DNA from: Candidatus Acididesulfobacter guangdongensis
GTDB lineage: Bacteria > SZUA-79 > Acidulodesulfobacterales > Acidulodesulfobacteraceae
DNA length: 64,000 bases
Direction of reading: 5' to 3'
Assembly (NCBI GenBank): GCA_004195045.1
Contig: SGBC01000001.1
Location: 744,001 to 808,000, forward strand
In this document: positions 108 to 22,177 of the stretch, piece after piece
How the letters are laid out: the number at the start of each line of letters is the position of its first letter
How positions within the stretch are numbered: position 1 is the first letter of the stretch
Notes under the pieces: generated by a model
What the model saw: only the letters and a program-made list of their open reading frames with translations
What the model was told of the DNA's origin: nothing
The model's database searches: none
Translations under genes and position numbers: made by a program

Positions 108-249
108 ACCTTTTTCCATTTATAAATTTAAAAAATAATAGAAAATATTACAAGGTTCAATGAAATAAAATAAAAAAATGACTGCAGAAAAGTCAAACTT
201 GGGGATTATTTTTTTCTAATGCAGGATTAAAGATTAGTTTGTTTGATGA

Positions 250-278
250 TTGATTTTTTAAAGGTTGGACTGTATAAT
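250..278 (+). promoter_or_regulatory. Sigma-70-type promoter, probably leaderless
   Basis: TTGATT (250-255), a 17-nt spacer and TATAAT (273-278) form a good housekeeping promoter. The expected transcription start near 285 almost coincides with the ATG at 286, so the DUF5714 mRNA may have no leader. This also argues against the upstream TTG at 265, which lies inside the promoter. Confidence 0.5.
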
Positions 279-285
279 ACTAATT

Positions 286-1293
286 ATGAATGCAATTAAT
301 AATACTGAAGATGCTTGCGATAACCATAACAGCCATGTTTCAAATTGCCTGATATGCGGAAGCAAATTACAATATCTGCAATCTTCTAAGGAATTGACCT
401 GTTTTTACTGCGGAAAAAAAGAAAAATCAAATATTGTCTGCGCAAATGACGAATCGCATTACGTCTGCGATGATTGTCATAGTATCTCTTCAATTAATTA
501 TATTAAAGAATTTGTTATAAATACTGTCATCGAAAATCCTTTTGAAATTGCATTGTCTATATTAGAAAATAAAGACATTCCAATGCTTGGATGTCATCAT
601 TGCTATATTTTAACCGGTTCAGTTCTTGCAAGTTTGAAAAATAAAAAGCTTTTTAATATAGGCAATGAGGATATAGAAGAGGCTTTTTTCAGATTATCGA
701 AACAGGCTGTAGGAGGCTATTGCGGACTAAGCGGCGTGTGCGGAATTGTCCCTGCCTGCGGTGTTATTTATTCCATTTTAACGGGGGCGGTTTGCGGCAA
801 AGATATTGAGCAAAAAATTACTATGGGTTTAACATCGGCTGTTTCAAATGCCATTTATGAACTCACAGGACCTTCATGCTGCAAAGCATATATGTTTAAA
901 GCTCTTGAAATTATCATTACCGATATTTACAGGGATTTCGGAGAAGTCATTTCCGGTAAAGATTTTGAAATAAAATGCGGTTTTGTCGAATTACATCCTC
1001 ACGGGTGCAGAAAAGAGAAATGTCCTTATTATTCAGGCGTAATATTTAACTATAATAATAATGAATTTTCTTGCATATCGGCAGCCGCTGCGGAAAACAA
1101 AAATTCATTAATCTCAACTTCTTCAAATTTATTATCTGCTTCGTCTTTATCCGCTTTATCCGCGGCTGATTTAAATGCCGGTTCGCCGGTTGTCCCAGAA
1201 CAGTTTGAAAAACAGCTTGAAAACAATAAACTCAATGCCGTAAAATATACGTTTGGCGAAAATAAGGTAAAAGCTGACAGCGCTCCATGCTGA
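286..1293 (+). CDS. DUF5714 domain-containing protein
   Basis: The product is 335 residues from the ATG at 286. The N-terminal ~75 residues carry zinc-ribbon-like cysteine pairs (CLIC, CFYC, CDDC). The core then contains the Cys/Gly-rich stretches GCHHCYILTGSVLA and CGLSGVCGIVPACG that I associate with DUF5714. A further Cys/His-rich piece follows (HPHGCRKEKCPYY). The many cysteines suggest metal or Fe-S binding, but no function is established. The C-terminal ~75 residues are Ser/Ala/Asn-rich and probably disordered. The next gene starts 40 bp downstream on the same strand and may be co-transcribed. Family assignment is fairly confident; the role is unknown. Confidence 0.75.
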   Translation: MNAINNTEDACDNHNSHVSNCLICGSKLQYLQSSKELTCFYCGKKEKSNIVCANDESHYVCDDCHSISSINYIKEFVINTVIENPFEIALSILENKDIPMLGCHHCYILTGSVLASLKNKKLFNIGNEDIEEAFFRLSKQAVGGYCGLSGVCGIVPACGVIYSILTGAVCGKDIEQKITMGLTSAVSNAIYELTGPSCCKAYMFKALEIIITDIYRDFGEVISGKDFEIKCGFVELHPHGCRKEKCPYYSGVIFNYNNNEFSCISAAAAENKNSLISTSSNLLSASSLSALSAADLNAGSPVVPEQFEKQLENNKLNAVKYTFGENKVKADSAPC

Positions 1294-1332
1294 GGCGCTA
1301 AATAAAGCCTGAGTTCAGGTTCTTCTATAATA

Positions 1333-1647
1333 ATGGGAATGAATAAAATAATAGAAGTAGAGGTAAAGACTGGTTCAAAATTTAAAAAATTTGAAATCAT
1401 AGAAAACGGCGGCAAAATTTGCAGCAGCAATAATAATAATAATAATTATGATAACAATAATAACAATAATGATATAACTGAAAATGTAGATAAAATTAAA
1501 CTTTATATTACTGAGCGTCCTATAAACAATAAGGCTAATGAAGCTATAATTAAATATCTTTCAGAAATATTTAATACGCCGAAAAAGAATATTGAAATAA
1601 TTAAAGGGCTAAAGATTAAGAATAAGCTCGTTAAAATTACCTTTTGA
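1333..1647 (+). CDS. DUF167 (YggU) family protein
   Basis: A small protein of 104 residues. The C-terminal half, with KLYITERPINNKANEAIIKY and then a Lys-rich strand (IEIIKGLKIKNKLVKITF), is typical of the DUF167/YggU fold, whose function is unknown. The usual ~75-100-residue domain is interrupted after about residue 34 by an Asn-rich insertion of roughly 17 residues encoded by AAT/AAC triplets (about 1426-1475). The first third of the domain is therefore divergent. The 3' end overlaps the convergent YhaN-like gene by 39 bp. Confidence 0.75.
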   Translation: MGMNKIIEVEVKTGSKFKKFEIIENGGKICSSNNNNNNYDNNNNNNDITENVDKIKLYITERPINNKANEAIIKYLSEIFNTPKKNIEIIKGLKIKNKLVKITF

Positions 1648-4600
1648 TAATAAATTGAGAATATGTTTATGGTGTGTAAAGTATATAATCTGTGTTTTCT
1701 TTGATATTTCAGAAAAAATTTTCAAACATTCAAAAGCCCTTTCATCGTCAAAATTCACTAAAGCATCGTCTATTATCATCGGCATCGGTTCATTTGATTC
1801 GATATATTTTTCAAAACTGGCAAGGCGAAGCGAGAGGTAAAGCTGGTCGCAAGTGCCCTCGCTCATACCGCCGACATCTATTTCCTGTATTTCTTCACCG
1901 GCACCTTTCCTTAAACCGACGAGTATAGCCTCGTCCTTTTCTGTATAAGATGTTCTGAGACCTGAAAATGATTTCAATGTCAGAGCCGAAAATATGCGGC
2001 TTGCTTTTTCTAAAACAGGTCCTTGATTTTGCAATCTGTATCGTTCTATTTCATTTTTAAGAATGATAGACGCTAATCTTATTTTGATATATCTGTCAGC
2101 GTGATGTTCAATTTGAGCCGCCGCTTCAGCTTTATTTTCCGCCGCTTCCGCCGCCGCATCCGAGTTGCCGTTGTACTGTTTAAGATATTGTTTTTCTGCG
2201 CCTATCGACTGTTCCAATTCAGAATTTTCTTTTTTTAGTTTTTCAAGTTCCGATTTTATATTGGCAATTTCGCCTGGAATAGAATCAGGATTAATTTCTT
2301 CAGATGCGGCAATAAATTTTTCTATTTCAGTGCCGCCTGAATGTCCGCTTAATTCTTTATTCAGCTGTTCCAATTTGTTTTTCAGCGATTCGGCTTCTTC
2401 AGATTTTCTCTCAATATCTTTTAGCTGCTCAATGTTTTCACAATCAGCCTCTTTCATCATAGATTTAAGCTTTGCATTAAATTTTTCTATTTTATTTTTT
2501 ATTTCATTGTTTTCTTCTTCATATTTATAAAGGTCGTCGTTGTGTTTTTGCAGAATAGCTTCATCCTTCATAGCTTTGCTCAAAGCGCTCTGCATTGCAT
2601 AAATTTTATCTCTGGCTTTTAAATCCGATACTTCAGGCATTGCCGCCGCGTACAGACTGTCCGCTTCGTGTTCAAAATTTAGAATATTTTTTTTAATAGC
2701 AGTTATTCTGCCCATCAATGTTTTTGATTCGCTTATTTTAACCGTCAATTCCTGTTCTATATCCACAAATTGTTTAGCTGCCGAGTATTCTTCGTCAGAT
2801 TTTAATCCGAGCGCCGACATTCCTTTTTTCCATTTTTCTTTAAGGTCGTTAATTCCGGAAATTGCTTTTTCTTTTTTTATGTTTATGCTGTGCAATTCTT
2901 CGCCAAATCGTTTTATATCTTTGTCTAATTCGAATTTTTCCGCTTTAATTTCATCTTGCCGTTTAATAAGATACAGACCTTCATTTATCAGTTCGGATAA
3001 CGTCATAGATTGCGCCTGTTTTTCTTCAGATTTATTTTCTGCTTCCGCTATATAGCCGGCAGATTTTAGATGTTCAGAGAGTAAAGAACGATTTTTATCT
3101 ATCTGTTTTTTTATATTATCAATATCTTCTTTTAAGTATCTTAAATTTTCGGCGTCTTTTGCAAGTTTCTGCTGATTTTGCAGCCATGAACGCATCTCTC
3201 TCGGTGTAAGCGGCGTAAATTTTAAAGGACTCCATAAGCCGTTCCACTCCTCCGTGAGTTTTTCTTTCACGGCAGTATGTTCTTTTTTTTGTATTTCAAG
3301 GGATTTCAGTTCATCTGCAATGTTATCCGATCTGGAAAGCCAGATTGTCTTTTTTGAAACGGCTTCTGATTCATGCCTCAGACTGTCGGATATTTTATCG
3401 GTATTCTCTATATTGTTTTCATATATATCGACTATAGACAAGCCGTTGTTATTCTTGTCATTGTCATTACAGTCAAGCGCGTATGTACTAATTTCCGTTT
3501 CTTTTATTTTTTTTTCGATGTAAATATCTTTTATTAATCTCCAGCTGCAATTTCTTTTTGATCTTTCGTTTTCAAGGTCTGTTTCTGTATATATTACGCC
3601 TTTAATCTCAAGAGCCGCAATATCTCTTTTTATATTTTCGGCTTCTTTTGAAAGTCCGTTAATTTTAGACTCAATTTTATCAATCTCGGAATTGATTTTT
3701 TCAAAGTTTCTGTCAAATTTGTCTATTGTTTCAACAAACGGAACAGGCAGCGTTTCAATTTCTTCGATAGTTCCGTTCCATAATACAAGTTTAGAAAGTT
3801 CATTCTTGCAGGAAGTTTCTTTTTTTATAAAGTTAGCTGTTTTTTCGTCTAAAAATTTTTCAATATCCCCGTCTTTCCTGATGCTTCCTATCAATTTTTC
3901 TAATCTTGTCAAATCGAAATATTCGCCTGTTCCGTTAAGTTTTGCTTCCGCCGCTGATTTCTTGCGTTCACGAGAATCAATAAGTTCGTCAAACTCTGAT
4001 ATTTTATTTTTTAGCGTGTTAATATCATTTGATAATTGCGAAATATTATCGCGTTGTCCCATAGCTGCGGATAATTCGGGCACTTCCTCAATAGAAATAT
4101 CCGGCCTGAATTTCTTAAGTTCATTAAACAGTCTTTCGGATTCATATTGCAGATTGCCATACTGACTTTCAAGACCGGGCAGGTCTTGTAATTCTTTTAT
4201 ATAACTGCCTAATCTCACATTAATATCTTCAATTTCTTTTTTGCGCGCAAGTAAGTTTTTAGGGATTTTAATATTTGATATTTTATCTTTAACCGATTGT
4301 AATTTTAAGTTATTTGCTGCTTCTTCACGTGCTGCTATTTCTAAAGATTGAGAGGTATCTTTCCTTTCGTCTGCAAATTGTTTTCCAAGAATCGGGACAT
4401 TACCGAGACGCTCCATGTTTAAAAGAGTTTCTTTTCTTTCGGCAATAGTCGGCAGAGCTCTATATATACGCTCAAATCTGCTGAGTTTTAAACTGAACTC
4501 GGTTATTTTTTGATTTATATCCAACTTTTTAGCTTCGGCATCTTTAAGATTTTCATTATGCTCAGTCCATTCTTTCGGCACAAGCGAATGCTGTTTAATT

Positions 4601-6950: not shown

Positions 6951-6994
6951 TATAGCATATTAAAAAAATATAAACAAAAATAAACCAACAACCG

Positions 6995-7237
6995 TTTAAA
7001 AGACAAGGGAAATAGGTTAAAAGCCTATGCTGTACCCGCAGCCGTAAGAGTTATTATTTTTAAGGATAGTCAAATATTAATTAAGCCACTTACATGCCTC
7101 GTAATATACTATATGTAATTTATTATATGTATATGTATATTATGTGCAATAAATGTTGGGAAGGCTGATTATCCGAATGCTCAAGCCGGAAGACCTGCTT
7201 TTAAATGATTTAATTTACATTTGCGGGGGGTCAAATG
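6995..7237 (+). promoter_or_regulatory. Cobalamin (B12) riboswitch, translational type
   Basis: The conserved pieces occur in order: AAGGGAA (7005-7011), the P5 hairpin with L5 loop CCCGC (7035-7039) and GCAGCCGTAA, GCCACTT (7085), GGGAAGGCTG, and the B12 box AAGCCGGAAGACCTGC (7183-7198). P1 closes by TTTAAAAG (6995-7002) with CTTTTAAA (7198-7205). Downstream, CATTTG (7218-7223) pairs with CAAATG (7232-7237), which contains the permease start codon. The loop CGGGGGGT holds the Shine-Dalgarno sequence and is complementary to L5. This is the classical L5-L13 kissing-loop arrangement in which bound B12 hides the ribosome-binding site. The controlled gene is an APC permease. Sequence match is strong; ligand binding is established for the family only. 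Confidence 0.93.
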
Positions 7238-13902: not shown

Positions 13903-13931
13903 TTGACATTTATTTTTTTAAGGTGTACAAT
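13903..13931 (+). promoter_or_regulatory. Near-consensus sigma-70 promoter
   Basis: TTGACA (13903-13908), a 17-nt spacer and TACAAT (13926-13931) form one of the best promoter matches in the window. Transcription would start near 13938, just upstream of the fluoride riboswitch aptamer, and run into the membrane-complex operon. Confidence 0.75.
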
Positions 13932-13950
13932 TTGATTGTATTTATACAAA

Positions 13951-14085
13951 GAGCAATGGGGTTCTGCTTATAACGCCTTTGGGTTGTTTTTTATCGTTTA
14001 AGGTTTTTGATTAAATCTTAAGGCTGATGACTCCTACATTATTAATTTTTAATTTACATTCTAACAAACAACAATAATAATGTAG
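13951..14085 (+). promoter_or_regulatory. Fluoride riboswitch (crcB motif)
   Basis: The 5' hairpin AGCA/TGCT (13952-13955, 13965-13968) encloses ATGGGGTTC. Next come TATAACGCC and the variable arm closed by GCCTT (13975-13979) and AAGGC (14020-14024). The invariant 3' strand is GGCTGATGACTCCTAC (14022-14037). GGGG in the first loop can pair with CTCC (14031-14034), the pseudoknot of the family. A competing stem, CTACATTATTA (14034-14044) with TAATAATGTAG (14075-14085), uses the last aptamer bases and ends at the ATG at 14086, giving a plausible on/off platform. The downstream genes are not the usual fluoride exporters but a membrane redox complex. The match is strong; fluoride sensing follows from the family. 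Confidence 0.93.
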
Positions 14086-15072
14086 ATGCAGAATGGAGCT
14101 GTGACCCATTATATGGATATCTATATCACTTCAGCCGTCTTTCAGATATTTCAGATTATCACCGTCCTTGTATTTTCTCCGCTTATTGCCGGATTTATTA
14201 ACAGAATTGAAGAGATTATTCAGGGTAAAAGAGGACCGTCTATATTTCAGCCGTATTATGACCTGTATAAGCTTTTTCATAAAGAAGTTATAATTTCCGA
14301 AGATTCGTCTTTTGTTTTTCGTTTTGCCCCCTTTGTTTCCTTTATATCAATGATACTTATTACTATGCTGATACCTGTTCTGACTGCGTACCCCCTGCCG
14401 CTGGGGTTTATGGGAGATATGCTGGGCGGAGCTTTTCTGTTTTCGCTGTCTTCTTTTTTCATAAACATAGCTTCGCTTGATAAAGGTACAAGTTACGGCG
14501 GGCTCGGCTCTTCAAGGGCAACTGTTCTTGCTATTCTTTCAGAACCTACGCTGATATTAGTTTTTGTGGGGGTTGCCTTAATTGCAAAATCAACTTTGCC
14601 TTATGTAATGCTGAATACTATAATTTCTCATTTGCCTTTATATTTCAGTTCTTCGCATTTTTTAATAATAACGGCTTTTTTTTTGCTGTTTCTTGCCGAT
14701 ACTGACAGAAGACCGATAAACGCATCTACGCATGTTGAAATGAGTATGATTGAAGAAGCCCGCATATTGGATTACTCAGGACCGTATCTGGCGCTGCTGA
14801 AATGGAGCGGCTATATGAAGCAATTTTTATTGCTCGTTATTTTCTTAAATGTTCTGGTTTTTCCGTGGGGTCTTGCGGTAAATCATAGTCCTCTATCGCT
14901 GTTTATCGCAGTTATCACATTAATTTTTAAAATGTTCATAGTAGGTATAATCGCGGCGCTGATTGATACATCCATATCAAGATTAAGATTTTTCAGATAT
15001 CAGGAATATTTTGCTGCCGCTTTTGTATTAAGCGTATTAGCTATAATGACTTTTCAGTATAAAGGATTTTAG
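14086..15072 (+). CDS. Membrane-complex subunit, HyfC/HycD/NuoH-like
   Basis: A 328-residue integral membrane protein with about 8 helices, homologous to the NuoH/HyfC/EchB subunit of complex I and group 4 hydrogenases. The conserved cytoplasmic loop GKRGPSIFQPYYDLYKLFHKE (residues ~48-68) and the EMSMIEEARILDYSG segment, which contacts the quinone or electron-carrier region in complex I, are both present. It is the first gene after the fluoride riboswitch. The start is uncertain: ATG 14086 abuts the regulatory stem, and ATG 14113 (MDIYITS) is an alternative more like family N-termini. The protein should anchor the peripheral arm and take part in ion translocation. Confidence 0.88.
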   Translation: MQNGAVTHYMDIYITSAVFQIFQIITVLVFSPLIAGFINRIEEIIQGKRGPSIFQPYYDLYKLFHKEVIISEDSSFVFRFAPFVSFISMILITMLIPVLTAYPLPLGFMGDMLGGAFLFSLSSFFINIASLDKGTSYGGLGSSRATVLAILSEPTLILVFVGVALIAKSTLPYVMLNTIISHLPLYFSSSHFLIITAFFLLFLADTDRRPINASTHVEMSMIEEARILDYSGPYLALLKWSGYMKQFLLLVIFLNVLVFPWGLAVNHSPLSLFIAVITLIFKMFIVGIIAALIDTSISRLRFFRYQEYFAAAFVLSVLAIMTFQYKGF

Positions 15073-15190
15073 ACTTTTCCTTTAGACATCTTTAGACATA
15101 TTTATTAATTATTTATTACTGGTAAAAATATGATGTTATTGGCTATGAGTTTAAACTAATAATATATAAGAACTCTTGGAGAATATAATT

Positions 15191-15865
15191 ATGCTGGGAC
15201 TTGCGCTGCCTGTTTATTTAAATGTGACGATTGATTTATTGACGGCTTTCATACTTCTTTTGTCTTTTGTAATGCTGAGTTCTAAGTGGATATCGTTTTA
15301 CATTCACGCATACGGTATTCAATCCTTTCTGATTTTTATACTGACGCTTATTCTCGGTATTGAAACGCGCAGCGTGAATTTGTATATGGTCGCTCTATTG
15401 ACGCTGATAGTAAGATGCTTGGCTGTGCCGTATATGCTTTTAAATATGATGAAAAAGTTTAACATAAAAGAAGAGATAAATTTCAGCATAAAAATTCCGG
15501 CATCCATTATTATTGGGCTTATTCTGACGGTATTCGGCTATTTTTTAACATTCAGGCTTATTCATAATTTTGCGCCGGATATAATTATAAATTCAGCAGC
15601 TATTGCCTTAAGTTTAATATTTATAGGATTTTTTATGATTATATCAAGATATACTACAATAACCCATATTTTGGGTTTGCTCGTGATTGAAAACGGTATT
15701 TTTCTGTTTTCCGTCATATTAACGCCGACACTGCCTTTAATAGTGGAATTAGTCGTTCTTTTCGATATTCTTGTCACTGTAGTTGCAATGTTAATTCTTT
15801 CAATGGTAATGAAAATAAAAACCGGTTCATTTTCAACGGGAATGTTGAATAGGCTTGTGGGATAA
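15191..15865 (+). CDS. Membrane-complex subunit, HyfE-like
   Basis: A 224-residue protein with about 6-7 transmembrane helices, resembling hydrogenase-4 component E (HyfE), which fuses NuoK-like features. The stretch ITHILGLLVIENGIFLFSVI is the typical conserved helix containing a membrane glutamate. ATG at 15191 was chosen because GGAG lies 9 nt upstream (15178-15181); the longer TTG start overlaps that site. It is followed after 4 nt by the HyfF-like gene, indicating translational coupling. A role in proton or sodium movement in the membrane arm is inferred from the family. Confidence 0.82.
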   Translation: MLGLALPVYLNVTIDLLTAFILLLSFVMLSSKWISFYIHAYGIQSFLIFILTLILGIETRSVNLYMVALLTLIVRCLAVPYMLLNMMKKFNIKEEINFSIKIPASIIIGLILTVFGYFLTFRLIHNFAPDIIINSAAIALSLIFIGFFMIISRYTTITHILGLLVIENGIFLFSVILTPTLPLIVELVVLFDILVTVVAMLILSMVMKIKTGSFSTGMLNRLVG

Positions 15866-15869
15866 TTTT

Positions 15870-17387
15870 ATGAAAATATTAATAATAATATTTCTGTTTA
15901 TACCTTTAATTGCAGGGCTTTGCTCTTTCGTATTAAAAAATAAAAGAGTCTCAGAAGCGCTGACATTTATATCATCGATTGTTTCGCTCTCAATATCCGT
16001 CGCTTTTTTAATTTATTTAATGAGCGAAAGAGGTTCTGCAGGCGTCATATCTATTTTTAATAATGCCGTAGTTATAGATAAATTTAGCGCTTATATTGTT
16101 TTATTAGTCGCTCTTATTTATTTTTTATCTTCCATGTATTCAATTTCCTACATGAAACTTGCCGTGAAAAATGAATCTGTTACGGATAGCGAGTTTTTTC
16201 GTTATTATTTATTAATTAATCTGTTTGCTCTTACTATGCTTGTTGCGCCTATCCTGAACAATATGGCGCTTTACTTGATTGATATCGAACTTACGACTAT
16301 AACAAGCTCTTTTTTGGTTATCACCGAAATTACGGAAAAATCTATCGAAGCAGCATGGAAATATATAGTTGTAGTTTCAAGCGGCATTTCGCTGGCTTTA
16401 TTAGGAACGGTTCTATTTTATTTGTCGGGAAACCTGCATGGTATTTACGGTTTGCATGTGTCTTCGTTAGATTGGACTGTTCTAAGCGCCCATTCCGCAT
16501 ATTTGAACAAAGATTTAGTTAAGATAGCGTTTATTTTAATAGTGATAGGTTTAGGCACTAAAGTCGGACTTGCGCCGATGCATACATGGGTTCCGGATGC
16601 GTATTCCGAAGCGCCTTCTCCTGTGTCCGCAATGCTTGCGGCTTCTTTAGAAAATGTTGCGCTGTACGGCATTATAAGATATTTTAACATAGCAGGAGGA
16701 AGCACCGGTTTTAATTATCCGGAGACGGTACTCGTTATAGCAGGAATTTTTTCTATATTTGTGGGTATCATGGGTATAATTAATCAGAATTCTACTAAAA
16801 GACTTTTTGCATATTCTAGTATTGAACAGATGGGTATTATAAGTTTAGGTTTTGGACTTGGCGGTGTTTTTGGAACATTCGGCGCGCTTTTTCAAATGCT
16901 GGCTCATAGTTTATCAAAACCTATAATGTTTTACGGCTCAGGAAATTTGCTTCATAAATATAAAACAAAGGAGATTAAAAATATAAAAGGAGTTATCTAT
17001 ACGATGCCCAAAACTGCTTTTTTATATATAGCCGGGGCTCTGACCCTTGTAGGAGCTCCACCTTCTGCGGCATTTATAGGTGAATTTTTAATACTTCTGG
17101 AAAGTTTTAAAAAAAGCGATTATTTTATATCGGCGCTGCTGATAATATTGCTTATAGCAGCTTTTATTGCAATATTAGCCAAGATAAATTCAATGATTTT
17201 TGGAGTGTCAGGCGAGAATGCAAATATATATGATGCGAACAATGTGCAGCTCAAAAGAGGAGATTTCGGTCCGGCTTCATTAGTGCCTATGGCGATACCG
17301 CTAATACTTACAATTTTTTTAGGGCTATATATTCCATCGCCGCTAAAGTCTTTTTTAGACGGAATAGTACGCATAATAATCAAATAG
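15870..17387 (+). CDS. Membrane-complex antiporter-like subunit, HyfF-like
   Basis: A 505-residue NuoL/M/N-type antiporter-like subunit with about 14 helices. The hallmark segment GLGTKVGLAPMHTWVPDAYSEAPSPVSAMLA includes the channel lysine and proline-broken helix. A conserved glutamate (DIELTT in an early helix) and KRLFAYSSIEQMGI also fit HyfF. The start at ATG 15870 follows GGGA with a 7-nt spacer, just after the previous stop codon. It should be one of two ion-pumping subunits of the complex, the other being the HyfB-like gene at the end of the operon. Confidence 0.87.
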   Translation: MKILIIIFLFIPLIAGLCSFVLKNKRVSEALTFISSIVSLSISVAFLIYLMSERGSAGVISIFNNAVVIDKFSAYIVLLVALIYFLSSMYSISYMKLAVKNESVTDSEFFRYYLLINLFALTMLVAPILNNMALYLIDIELTTITSSFLVITEITEKSIEAAWKYIVVVSSGISLALLGTVLFYLSGNLHGIYGLHVSSLDWTVLSAHSAYLNKDLVKIAFILIVIGLGTKVGLAPMHTWVPDAYSEAPSPVSAMLAASLENVALYGIIRYFNIAGGSTGFNYPETVLVIAGIFSIFVGIMGIINQNSTKRLFAYSSIEQMGIISLGFGLGGVFGTFGALFQMLAHSLSKPIMFYGSGNLLHKYKTKEIKNIKGVIYTMPKTAFLYIAGALTLVGAPPSAAFIGEFLILLESFKKSDYFISALLIILLIAAFIAILAKINSMIFGVSGENANIYDANNVQLKRGDFGPASLVPMAIPLILTIFLGLYIPSPLKSFLDGIVRIIIK

Positions 17388-17407
17388 AAACAAGCATAAA
17401 AATAAAA

Positions 17408-18796
17408 ATGAGACATCAGCCTATGTTTAAAAAATTTTTGGGCGATTATGAATTTATCTGGGGTCCGGTTAAAAAAGGCGTATGTGAATCTTCATATTAC
17501 CATTTTTTAACTTCAAGCGAAGAGTTGCATGAGCTTGATATAACTCTCGGCTATAAAACCAGAAATGCAATGAATGCAGCACGGGGAAAAGGTAATTTAT
17601 ACGAACAGATTTTAATCATGGAACGGATTGCAGGAACGCATGCTTTTGCAGCTTCTTTAAGCTATTGTCTTGCTGCGGAGGATTATTTCGGGCTGACTGA
17701 CAAATTGCCGGATTACATAAAATTAATAAGGATGTTTTTTGCCGAATTAGAAAGATTAAGAAATCATATAGAAAATTTATCCGAAATATCCGGTTCTACA
17801 TATTTAGAAGTGCCGTCTTCGCTATATGCCTATTACGCTGAAAAAATTAAACAGCTTTCATCGGAGATTGTATTTTCAAGATATCTTATGGGTATTAATA
17901 CTGTAGGCGGAGTAAGATTAAATAATGTACTCTGCCATAAGTTTATTGACAATAGCAATAGCAATAACGATAGCAATATTTACAATAATAGTAATAATAA
18001 TGATATTGGCAATGATAGTGCAGCTAATTTTAAATGTTTTGAGTATATAGTAAAAGCAATAGGTTCTTATATAACAGATATTGAAAAAATAATAAAGCAG
18101 AACTCGGAAACCAAATCGCATATTGACCGATTAAAAACTACAGGAAAGATTAATCCTGAAATTGCCGAAAAACTTCATGCTGAAGGCATTGTTGCTAAAA
18201 GCGCAGGGATTAGCCGTGATTTAAGATTAAAATATCCTTACTTGCTTTATAAAGATATTGCCCTGAAACCTGTTTTGTATAATGACGGCGATGCGCTTTC
18301 AAGATATCTTGTAAGAATAGGCGAGATAAGGCAGTCGTTTGATATTCTTAAAATTTGTTTTGAAAAATTGACAAAAAATATGTCAGAATCGAATATAAAT
18401 ACGGATGATATTTATGGGCACGGCAAAAATATAATTAATACAGGCAAGCTGCAGCATGATATGCGCAGTATATATAATTATAGCAATAGCGATAATAATA
18501 GCGACGGCAATAATGATAGCAATAGCGGCGGATATAATAGCGATGTTTATCAGAATTTGTTCTTATCAGGTGTTCCGCATGGAAAATACGGTTTTGGTTC
18601 CGTTGAGTCGTCGGAAGGTCCGATATTCTGCATAACTGGAAGATTTGACGGCAAAATTTTTAAAAAAATCAATATTAAATATCCGTTCGAAAATAATTTT
18701 AAGGTATTCAAACATTTTACTAAAAATACTATGATGATGGATTTCAATATTAACGAAACGAGCTATAATTTTTCGGTTGCGGCGTGCGACAAATAA
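17408..18796 (+). CDS. Hydrogenase-large-subunit-like protein lacking NiFe ligands
   Basis: A 462-residue homologue of HycE/HyfG/NuoD. The place where group 4 hydrogenases have RxCGxC reads MERIAGTHAFAAS: the two expected cysteines are Ala75 and His78. The C-terminus ends in FSVAACDK without the paired-cysteine motif. It therefore cannot hold a normal NiFe site and resembles the catalytic-subunit homologues of Ehr complexes or the NuoD-type quinone-site subunit. Two Asn/Ser/Asp-rich insertions (about residues 178-204 and 355-380) break conserved regions. No N-terminal NuoC-like domain is obvious. It lies 20 bp after the HyfF-like gene. Confidence 0.82.
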   Translation: MRHQPMFKKFLGDYEFIWGPVKKGVCESSYYHFLTSSEELHELDITLGYKTRNAMNAARGKGNLYEQILIMERIAGTHAFAASLSYCLAAEDYFGLTDKLPDYIKLIRMFFAELERLRNHIENLSEISGSTYLEVPSSLYAYYAEKIKQLSSEIVFSRYLMGINTVGGVRLNNVLCHKFIDNSNSNNDSNIYNNSNNNDIGNDSAANFKCFEYIVKAIGSYITDIEKIIKQNSETKSHIDRLKTTGKINPEIAEKLHAEGIVAKSAGISRDLRLKYPYLLYKDIALKPVLYNDGDALSRYLVRIGEIRQSFDILKICFEKLTKNMSESNINTDDIYGHGKNIINTGKLQHDMRSIYNYSNSDNNSDGNNDSNSGGYNSDVYQNLFLSGVPHGKYGFGSVESSEGPIFCITGRFDGKIFKKINIKYPFENNFKVFKHFTKNTMMMDFNINETSYNFSVAACDK

Positions 18797-18865
18797 ATAT
18801 AATAGATAAAATTAAATTTAACTAGGCAGAATAATTAATAATTTATCTTATCGGGGCAGATTTTA

Positions 18866-19852
18866 ATGGCTATATGGACATATAACGGTTTAAAATTCGG
18901 AATTAAATCAGTAAATTTTCCAAAGGAAAACGATTTTTACGAAGGTTTTTTTTCGTATTTAAAATTTGATACCGATAAATGCTTAAATTTTAAAGAAACT
19001 TTAGACAGTAATGATTTACCTTGTTTAAAATGTCAGGAAGTGTGTCCGACAGGCGCAATAGATATTTTAAATATTTACGATAGCAAAAATAGCGCAAATT
19101 ATGCAAATAGGGCAGATAAAGAGAACAGAACAGGTAAAATAATTAACGGCGCAGATAATATCAGCGCAAATAAAATTAATAAAATTCATAAAAAAATCGA
19201 TAAAATCAATACAGAAGTAAAAGACATAATAGACATAAAAAAATGCATATATTGCGGATTGTGCGTCTCGGAATGTTCAAATATAGCCGAAGCCGTCAGT
19301 TTTTCCAACTTTATCGGTAAAGATAATATTAATGAAGCTCATGTTAAGAATAATATAAAAAATAATGCCAAAAACAGCGATAAAAAAAAGTTTGGTTTTT
19401 TTAAAAAATCTTTATTCGTAAAACATATAGACTCAGGTTCCTGCGGAGCATGCGAATCGGAGATAACGGCGTTGAATAATCCGTATTATAATATGCACAG
19501 ACTAGGAATATTTATAACGCCGAGCCCCAGATTCGCCGATGTAATATTGCTGACCGGCGTATTTACCGATAGAATGTCCGATATTTTTTACAATGTGCTG
19601 GATAATACTCCGAATCCGAGATTCATACTTCTTGCAGGCGTATGTCCTATTTCCGGAGGCATCTGGAGCAGTTCTGCCCGGCATATAGGCGGTTCTGAAA
19701 GCCGGTTAAATAATTCCGGTTTTTTAAATAATAAAAAAAACGGCAATATTTTAAAAACTGAAAATATAATACTGGTGCCCGGATGTCCGCCAAATCCATT
19801 TATGATACTTAACGTATTGCTGTCGATAAAGTCCGGCGGCTTTGCAATGTAA
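18866..19852 (+). CDS. Ferredoxin/NuoB-like fusion subunit (HyfH-HyfI type)
   Basis: A 328-residue fusion. The N-terminal ~150 residues are a 2[4Fe-4S] ferredoxin: CLKCQEVCP (residues ~52-60) and CIYCGLCVSEC (~129-139), separated by a Lys/Asn-rich insertion of about 55 residues. The C-terminal half is a NuoB/HyfI small subunit: SGSCGACESEI supplies two cluster cysteines, followed by GVCPISGGIW and VPGCPPNP. These are the ligands of the proximal [4Fe-4S] cluster. In related operons the ferredoxin and small subunit are usually separate genes. The protein would carry electrons between a soluble donor and the large-subunit homologue. Confidence 0.85.
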   Translation: MAIWTYNGLKFGIKSVNFPKENDFYEGFFSYLKFDTDKCLNFKETLDSNDLPCLKCQEVCPTGAIDILNIYDSKNSANYANRADKENRTGKIINGADNISANKINKIHKKIDKINTEVKDIIDIKKCIYCGLCVSECSNIAEAVSFSNFIGKDNINEAHVKNNIKNNAKNSDKKKFGFFKKSLFVKHIDSGSCGACESEITALNNPYYNMHRLGIFITPSPRFADVILLTGVFTDRMSDIFYNVLDNTPNPRFILLAGVCPISGGIWSSSARHIGGSESRLNNSGFLNNKKNGNILKTENIILVPGCPPNPFMILNVLLSIKSGGFAM

Positions 19853-19972
19853 GAAGTACGATATGATAATGATAAGCGAAGCGCATTATACCCAAAATTG
19901 CCGATGGAAATTTTAAAATTAAATTAAGCATGTAAATAATTATGGAAAAGTTTGAAGGAAAAATAAACTAAT

Positions 19973-22177
19973 ATGAATAATCTTGCAGATAATCAGGCGG
20001 CGTATATCTATTTTTACTATTTGTTTATGATTTTTTCGATAGGCGGAATAGTAGTTTCATTTTCAGGCATGATTTTTAAAAAATTTAATAAAGCCTATAT
20101 AGCAGGCAATATTCTTTATATGGCTGCATCTTTTTTTGCAGTGATATCAGCCCTGTCTTTTTTTATTAAGCCCGTATATAATTTCTTTAATCTATTTGAA
20201 TTTAACTTGAATTACGCCGGCGGCAGTGTGCTATTCAGCATCGGCAGATATTTTCCGGCAGGCAATATACTGATGAGATTAGATTCGCTTAGTGCTTTTT
20301 TTATTTTATTTTCCTTTAGCGTATTCTTTTACATTTCTCTATATCAGATAAAATATATTGAAAGATTTAAAGAAAAAATTAATCTGTCAAGTTTTACTTT
20401 TTTATTTGGGATTATGCTTTTAAGCGTTTATTTTACGCTGTTTTCATTTAATGCCTTCATTTTTATGATAAGCTGGGAAGTAATGGCTGTGTCTTCCTAT
20501 CTTCTGGTGCTTGGCAAACATTATATTAAGGGCACCGTTAAAGCCGGTTTTTTGATGTCGACGATTATGGAATTCGGCGGTATGCTAATAATCGCCGCTA
20601 TTATGCTTCTATATGTCCATTCCGGAAGTTTTAATCTGTTCGGCATGAGAGATATTGTTATTGCACCGGAACTTAAGGATGTTATATTCCTGCTATTTTT
20701 ATTCGGTTTCGGAGCAAAAATAGGCATAGTGCCTCTGCACATCTGGCTACCGGAAGCGCATCCGGCTTCTTTATCGGGGGTTTCCGCAATTTTAAGCGGC
20801 GTTTTAACGTCTGCAGGCGTATACGGGGTTATGAGATTCGGTCTGTATGTGCTGCATCCGGTAAATACGGCATTATTTTTAGGAACCGTAACTATCGTTA
20901 TAGCTGTATTGACTATGTTTTTCGGGGTAGTATATATGGCTCAGACCCATGATTTAAAAGTTTTATTGTCGTATTCGACCGTTGAAAATATGGGTCTTAT
21001 TCTGACCGGCATTGGAGCATCTTTATATTACAGATATTTTAATCTTGAAGGTCTTGCCGCTCTTGCGCTTCTGGCGTCTTTATACGCATTGATAAATCAT
21101 GCTTTTTTTAAAAGCCTTCTTTTTATGGGCGCAGGAAATGTCGAATATGAAACGGACAGTCATGATATGGATAAATTCGGCGGTCTGCTGCAAACTATGC
21201 GATTAACCGGAATTTTAGTGTTTATAGGGGTATTATCGGCAGCGGCTATGCCTCCTTTAAACGGATTTGTTTCAGAATGGCTTAATCTGGAAGTGGTTTT
21301 TTTAGGTTTTAATATACACAGTATTTTGCCGAGGATAGTGCTTTTTTCGGCAGGTGCGGTTTTAGCGCTCAGCGCTGCAATGGCGATAGCCAACTATGTG
21401 AAACTTTACGGCATAACCTTCCTTAGTTCAGCAAGGTCGAAAAAGGCGATGAAAGCTAAGGAAGTTCCGTTATTAATGAATATTGCCATTTTAATTCCGG
21501 TGCTCCTCAGCATATCGTTATCTGCTTTTATGTTTTTTTATACTCCTTTCATGTCTAGAGTATCAAACTTGATTTATCATATAAATATAAATGATAAAAT
21601 AATGCATAATTATATTTTTATCCCGTATTATAATACTTTTTCTGCGTCTAGTCCGGTTTACCTATTTTTTGTATCAATAATCCTGTTAATTGTTTTATAT
21701 ATAATTTACCGTTATTTGCTTAAACCTGAAAAAAGATATGTAAAATATGCCTGGACGGGAGGAACCGAAAGCTCAAACCAGCATGCGCAAATTTCTGCTT
21801 TAGGTTTTTCAAACGCAATAAGGATAATGTTTAATATTGTTTATAAATCGAGGCAGAGAATTGAAACGAGGACGATAAAAACTTTGTATGCCGATACGAA
21901 TTCTGATTCTGGCATAGACGCGGATAATGCGGACAATAGAGGCTTGCACGCCGGTACAAAAAATCCTTTCCCTTATGCTTCTTTTTATCACGATTCAAGC
22001 GGATACGGTTCTTACATATTCCCCCTGTTAGAATATTATCTTTATATGCCGGTTATAAAATTTTTTAACCGTCTAAGTTCCTTGACTACTTCAAGACTGC
22101 AGAACGGTTCATTAAACGTGTATATATTTTATATATTTTTCGTATTTCTTGCAGCGCTGTTTATAGTGATAATTTAA
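19973..22177 (+). CDS. Membrane-complex antiporter-like subunit, HyfB-like
   Basis: A 734-residue NuoL/HyfB-type protein with about 15 or more helices. Family features are the helix FMISWEVMAVSSYLLV with its conserved Glu, the segment GFGAKIGIVPLHIWLPEAHPASLSGVSA with the channel Lys, and DLKVLLSYSTVENMG. A polar, Asp/Asn-rich stretch interrupts the C-terminal part (about residues 640-665, encoded near 21890-21960). It is the last gene of the riboswitch-led operon. Its stop codon overlaps the end of convergent nifV by 4 bp. It is likely the second ion-translocating subunit of the complex. Confidence 0.87.
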   Translation: MNNLADNQAAYIYFYYLFMIFSIGGIVVSFSGMIFKKFNKAYIAGNILYMAASFFAVISALSFFIKPVYNFFNLFEFNLNYAGGSVLFSIGRYFPAGNILMRLDSLSAFFILFSFSVFFYISLYQIKYIERFKEKINLSSFTFLFGIMLLSVYFTLFSFNAFIFMISWEVMAVSSYLLVLGKHYIKGTVKAGFLMSTIMEFGGMLIIAAIMLLYVHSGSFNLFGMRDIVIAPELKDVIFLLFLFGFGAKIGIVPLHIWLPEAHPASLSGVSAILSGVLTSAGVYGVMRFGLYVLHPVNTALFLGTVTIVIAVLTMFFGVVYMAQTHDLKVLLSYSTVENMGLILTGIGASLYYRYFNLEGLAALALLASLYALINHAFFKSLLFMGAGNVEYETDSHDMDKFGGLLQTMRLTGILVFIGVLSAAAMPPLNGFVSEWLNLEVVFLGFNIHSILPRIVLFSAGAVLALSAAMAIANYVKLYGITFLSSARSKKAMKAKEVPLLMNIAILIPVLLSISLSAFMFFYTPFMSRVSNLIYHININDKIMHNYIFIPYYNTFSASSPVYLFFVSIILLIVLYIIYRYLLKPEKRYVKYAWTGGTESSNQHAQISALGFSNAIRIMFNIVYKSRQRIETRTIKTLYADTNSDSGIDADNADNRGLHAGTKNPFPYASFYHDSSGYGSYIFPLLEYYLYMPVIKFFNRLSSLTTSRLQNGSLNVYIFYIFFVFLAALFIVII

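Follow-up and report, generated by a model that had tools for sequence, protein, structure and literature searches.

The window analysed here, a stretch of 64,000 nucleotides from the genome of AP2 (Candidatus Acididesulfobacter, a bacterium from acid mine drainage; PMC6776010), carries on its forward strand an operon of six genes (14086-22177) in the order H-E-F-L-S-B. The first gene, H (14086-15072, although its true start may be 14113; PF00146, E-value 4e-30), encodes a NuoH/HycD-like membrane subunit, the best solved relative of which is FHL subunit 4. It is followed by E (15176-15865), a HyfE-like membrane subunit whose match to NF008556 (E-value 1e-16) stays under that model's cut-off. 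Two antiporter-like subunits of the PF00361 family, F (HyfF/NuoM-type, 15855-17387) and B (HyfB/NuoL-type, 19973-22177), each possess a complete ion path (E145, K236, H351 and K355 in F; E169, K249, H376 and K380 in B). Between them lie L (17408-18796; PF00346), a 49-kDa/HycE-like large subunit, which, according to the ligand columns, has neither NiFe ligands nor the quinone-site His, and S (18866-19852; PF01058), a NuoB-like small subunit fused to a two-cluster ferredoxin part. The alignment indicates that S has kept the 12 cysteines for three 4Fe-4S clusters. Solved relatives of the operon proteins include subunits of formate hydrogenlyase, Mbh and complex I, and the six genes of the operon include none for a formate dehydrogenase or for hydrogenase maturation. 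Asn-rich inserts in the large (~17940-18610) and small (~19070-19390) subunits are, within the family, confined to the genus of AP2. AP2 also possesses a second, Ehr-like operon (L065, 7321-14386, ~1.6-8.7 kb before window base 1) of the order B-H-E-F-large, in which the large subunit ends early, no small subunit is adjacent and no riboswitch is present.

Leader of the operon and fluoride exporters in the family

A consensus scan of the leader retrieved a sigma-70-type promoter (TTGACA-17-TACAAT, 13903-13931) agreeing at 11 of 12 positions, a match and not a proof, in line with the near-consensus promoter described in an earlier, sequence-only reading. The aptamer of a fluoride riboswitch (RF01734; 13943-14043) starts 11 bases past this promoter. 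In cmscan it covers model positions 1-64 of 64 with 39.0 bits (gathering score 34; E-value 1.3e-8 for the 3 kb searched and 2.7e-7 for the whole window), and it is the only RF01734 match in the 2,217,123-base AP2 genome; R1, a fluoride model built in this analysis, scores it at 37.6 bits. The covariance search therefore bears out the earlier recognition of a crcB-type fluoride riboswitch, and its presence before the operon is confirmed. Like other RF01734 riboswitches, it is a full-length match above the gathering score and lies upstream of fluoride-linked genes, but it differs from them in the long insert of its P3 loop and, probably, in acting at translation. A cobalamin riboswitch (RF00174, 52.8 bits) is located elsewhere in the window (6983-7216, forward strand).

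The 3' end of the aptamer overlaps the 5' arm of a competing stem, in which 14034-14044 (CTACATTATTA) pairs exactly over 11 bp with 14075-14085 (TAATAATGTAG); this helix, equalled in strength in ~1% of shuffles, would probably constitute a translational off-state. The stem had been described as ending at the first start codon and does adjoin the ATG at 14086, but this ATG is possibly not the true start of H, because the gene starts in relatives outside the genus at the equivalent of ATG 14113, which has GGAG at 14095-14098. Complements of 8-11 bp between the 3' part of the aptamer and the sequence immediately upstream of the gene occur, with differing sequences, in 13 of 14 family leaders; most of those in relatives are individually weak (p 0.01-0.6), and a stem proven family-wide was accordingly rejected. 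A transcription terminator was rejected as well, since a search of the AP2 leader for an intrinsic terminator found none. Together with the complements near the start codon, this makes control at the level of translation the likelier mode in AP2.

The H gene is present in 18 of the 30 genomes of AP2's family, and in all 17 members with readable upstream DNA the riboswitch directly precedes H of the same six-gene operon. CrcB, searched for in 16 family genomes, was retrieved from one only (G008), which lacks the H-E-F-L-S-B operon and in which a separate fluoride riboswitch precedes CrcB and DUF190. No CrcB (PF02537) was found in the AP2 genome, and its single ClC possesses GREGP instead of the fluoride signatures GNNLI/GMGLI; the operon is therefore the only recognisable fluoride-response unit of AP2. 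Fluc requires a positive-outside potential (PMC11139923), whereas acidophiles hold an inside-positive one (PMC12831704), which may explain the missing CrcB. In several genera of the family the operon is followed by a gene for a dynamin-like GTPase (PF00350), and in unrelated genomes such genes stand immediately downstream of fluoride riboswitches (the loci are L027, 2967-4703; L023, 9371-11146; L113; L142; L146; and L127). A search of AP2 for this partner, run without a positive control, found none.

Linkage of riboswitch and complex across phyla

An RF01734 search over 386 genomes revealed riboswitches in 90, and in eight of the genomes searched, belonging to seven other families, the riboswitch leads into genes of the H-E-F-L-S-B complex. 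A small-subunit motif derived from riboswitch-linked members yielded 348 relatives in a search over 84,980 species genomes, and the best 80 were retained for analysis. Among these loci, R1 (27 training sequences, five of them from such operons) detected a riboswitch before H in 58 of the 61 with upstream sequence. Three of the 58 are weak matches right at H (18-23 bits), and Rfam's own model confirmed the riboswitch before the operon in six of eight sampled loci. At L213 a weak riboswitch is placed before crcB-DUF190-H, while at L172 and L174, two of the 61 loci examined, none was detected upstream of H. Carriers outside AP2's family belong to Proteobacteria, Acidobacteria, Desulfurellales, Campylobacterota and Bacteroidetes. 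Culturable species among the carriers of the operon include Acidiphilium iwatense, Rhodopila globiformis, Ancylobacter dichloromethanicus and Acidicapsa dinghuensis. A survey of group 4-like operons for the motif, as the sequence-only reading had proposed, thus separates the clade from related Ehr/Hyf-type control operons, none of which (0/21, AP2's own paralogue included) has the riboswitch (Fisher p 1.1e-16 for 58/61 versus 0/21, the controls representing one related operon type, nearly all of different gene order). The hyc, hyf and nuo regions of E. coli are equally devoid of a fluoride riboswitch.

In a tree of H and F (58 rows, quick method, with some long branches and an L178 row that may mix two operons of one contig), the riboswitch-linked complexes form one clade with a support of 100, apart from the controls and from E. 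coli Hyf. The contig of L178 contains a second, divergent copy of the complex (189-2059, reverse strand) with its own riboswitch (1998-2059, reverse strand), and another such copy is present on the contig of L228 (9294-14209, reverse strand). Ehr, defined as a set of group 4 hydrogenase-like subunits devoid of NiFe ligands (PMC10284858), shares this definition with the riboswitch-linked complexes, but its gene order is B-H-E-F-L-S, and the riboswitch clade is set apart from it by the tree (in which Ehr is represented by a sample only), the riboswitch, the crcB neighbours and an Fe-S-free subclade.

Among the best 80 of the 348 relatives, crcB is the next gene after the operon in 19 of 62 loci; DUF190, enolase-like and dynamin-like genes are also recurrent neighbours. 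A strict rule of either CrcB or the complex was consequently rejected: the claim that the complex stands in place of a fluoride exporter holds for AP2, but elsewhere crcB often lies directly downstream. Another recurrent product of genes immediately following fluoride riboswitches is a small protein family whose members have a CPxC motif close to their start (L096, L104, L120, L124 and L139).

The modest score and long P3 insert of the AP2 aptamer, as well as the weak family-wide support for its competing stem, could be taken as signs of a chance match or of a relic RNA devoid of regulatory meaning. Such an explanation is very improbable, given that the linkage is kept both within the family and across phyla and that the neighbours include crcB, DUF190 and enolase-like genes; it was rejected on the cross-phylum linkage. 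Whatever the mechanism, a dedicated role of the complex in the fluoride response can be held with high confidence.

Metal ligands and the ion path

"Formate hydrogen lyase" genes behind crcB motifs were reported in 2010 (Weinberg 2010, PMC2864571), and the association was repeated in 2024 (PMC11139923), so that the earlier reading was right to name such genes among the published associations. Taken literally, these annotations would mean that fluoride switches on the H2 chemistry of a formate hydrogenlyase or group 4 hydrogenase, and both the published names and the subunit homology speak for it: the membrane, large and small subunits are homologous to those of E. coli Hyc and Hyf. However, Hyc and Hyf possess NiFe ligands and no riboswitch, and the riboswitch-linked complex is the reverse. 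The NiFe columns, CCCC in HycE and HyfG, contain a complete pair in none of 95 large subunits of the riboswitch clade, one subclade (B) keeping a single one of the four cysteines. On this ligand test the hydrogenase reading was rejected, and, the formate dehydrogenase and maturation genes also being missing from the six-gene operon, we give it almost no credence; judged from these sequences, a fluoride-stress ion transporter would be more likely than a hydrogenase.

The His of the complex I quinone site (NuoD) is likewise absent in all clade members aligned. The Fe-S ligands divide the clade: among the best 80 of the 348 relatives, 58 of the 59 loci in subclade A retain all 12 cysteines (the other locus is truncated), whereas the 21 loci of subclade B have lost all Fe-S cysteines along with the ferredoxin part. 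The proximal ligands are lost at L129, and at L131 and L143 they are kept while the ferredoxin part is degraded. Fe-S-free loci come from Desulfurellales, Hippea, Campylobacterota, Bacteroidetes, Spirochaetales and others; their gene order is unchanged, the riboswitch is mostly present too, and their small subunit still matches the NuoB/MbhJ fold (profile; AlphaFold model, pLDDT 80). Inspection of the genes downstream of subclade-B operons revealed no CxxCxxC protein; these complexes could draw on an Fe-S protein whose gene lies in another part of the genome. Of the earlier description as an energy-converting complex, a membrane complex of the formate-hydrogenlyase type remains, but not a hydrogenase-like enzyme.

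In contrast to the metal ligands, the membrane arm has been preserved. TM5 Glu, TM7 Lys and TM12 Lys of F and B (labels taken from established complex I knowledge) are 95-100% conserved in both subclades, as are the acidic and Lys residues of H (94-100%), so that the membrane arm is the part retained by selection throughout. In these antiporter-type residues and in its NuoH-like and NuoB-like subunits the complex resembles complex I and the Mbh/Mrp antiporter modules, and the buried Glu and Lys of the putative ion path correspond to those of the Nuo L/M and Mrp A/D ion channels. It differs from complex I by the missing quinone-site His and, in subclade B, by the missing Fe-S ligands.

The intact three-cluster ligands suggest that electrons still matter in subclade A, and the Fe-S chain of AP2 is the main argument for a redox-driven pump. 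In such a scheme, electrons supplied by ferredoxin or a different donor would flow through the complex of AP2 and subclade A to an acceptor, and the pumping of H+ or Na+ would restore the proton-motive force that HF dissipates; subclade B would be a secondarily changed form. The ligands are intact in AP2's family as well as in subclade A, the ion path is complete, and Ehr and Mbx are thought to couple redox with ion movement (PMC6349859). Yet the missing NiFe site and quinone-site His leave no known electron acceptor, and the Fe-S-free relatives retain the same riboswitch and ion path; on balance, we consider a redox-driven pump rather unlikely.

Charged residues specific to the clade are also located in the membrane subunits (H-E43, H-H191, B-E200 and E-R80); in the control operons the position of B-E200 is His in most cases and that of E-R80 is Lys in all. 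These residues, the lack of a known exporter in AP2 and the confinement of the family's CrcB to a genome without the operon would agree with a membrane arm that itself carries F- or HF out of the cell and replaces CrcB in AP2. We judge this unlikely, as crcB follows in the same operon elsewhere, so that the complex cannot be a simple replacement, anion transport is not known from any homologue, and the resemblance is entirely to proton and cation antiporters.

A putative ion transporter of the fluoride response

Since Fe-S-free members share the riboswitch, gene order and ion path with the others, the common function need not be redox-driven, and with the membrane arm as the conserved working part, movement of protons or cations is most likely. 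Fluoride-induced, redox-independent ion translocation may thus be the shared function of the clade, a proposition in which our confidence is about even. HF entry, above all in acid, releases H+ and F- (PMC11139923, PMC12831704). Under this proposal, HF would enter the cell and set free H+ and F- inside; fluoride would open the switch, probably at translation, and the six-subunit complex-I-like membrane complex would be made. Its working part would be the membrane arm, with two antiporter-type subunits and the NuoH-like and HyfE-like subunits, moving protons or cations, possibly coupled to F-, and so restoring cytoplasmic pH, ion balance and fluoride exclusion; the Fe-S chain of AP2 may still carry or sense electrons. 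Both the acid habitat and the conserved ion path agree with the earlier suggestion that the complex compensates for protons brought in by HF. The riboswitch, its clade-wide linkage, the ligand losses and the retained ion path are read from the sequences themselves; that fluoride induces the operon in vivo, which ion is moved in which direction and what powers the movement we infer.

More broadly, and with slightly less than even confidence, we propose that this phylum-crossing complex-I-like class is a dedicated fluoride-resistance machine without redox chemistry, a multi-subunit transporter of ions (possibly F-/H+) whose Fe-S centres are dispensable, having been lost in one subclade, and which would serve cells where passive Fluc channels are insufficient. 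We found no paper describing the riboswitch-linked clade in the literature searched, which excluded most subscription journals; as far as we have seen, its members not being hydrogenases, its separate, fluoride-linked status and its Fe-S-free subclade are new.

The notion that fluoride riboswitches control formate hydrogenlyase is hereby corrected, at least for this clade, a distinct complex-I-like lineage whose tie to fluoride is seen in 58 of the 61 loci open to examination. Its naturally Fe-S-free complex I relatives raise the question of whether a membrane arm can transport usefully without electrons. The complex also suggests how microbes handle fluoride in acidic surroundings, in which the toxicity of HF is particularly high and channels that conduct fluoride passively may fail.
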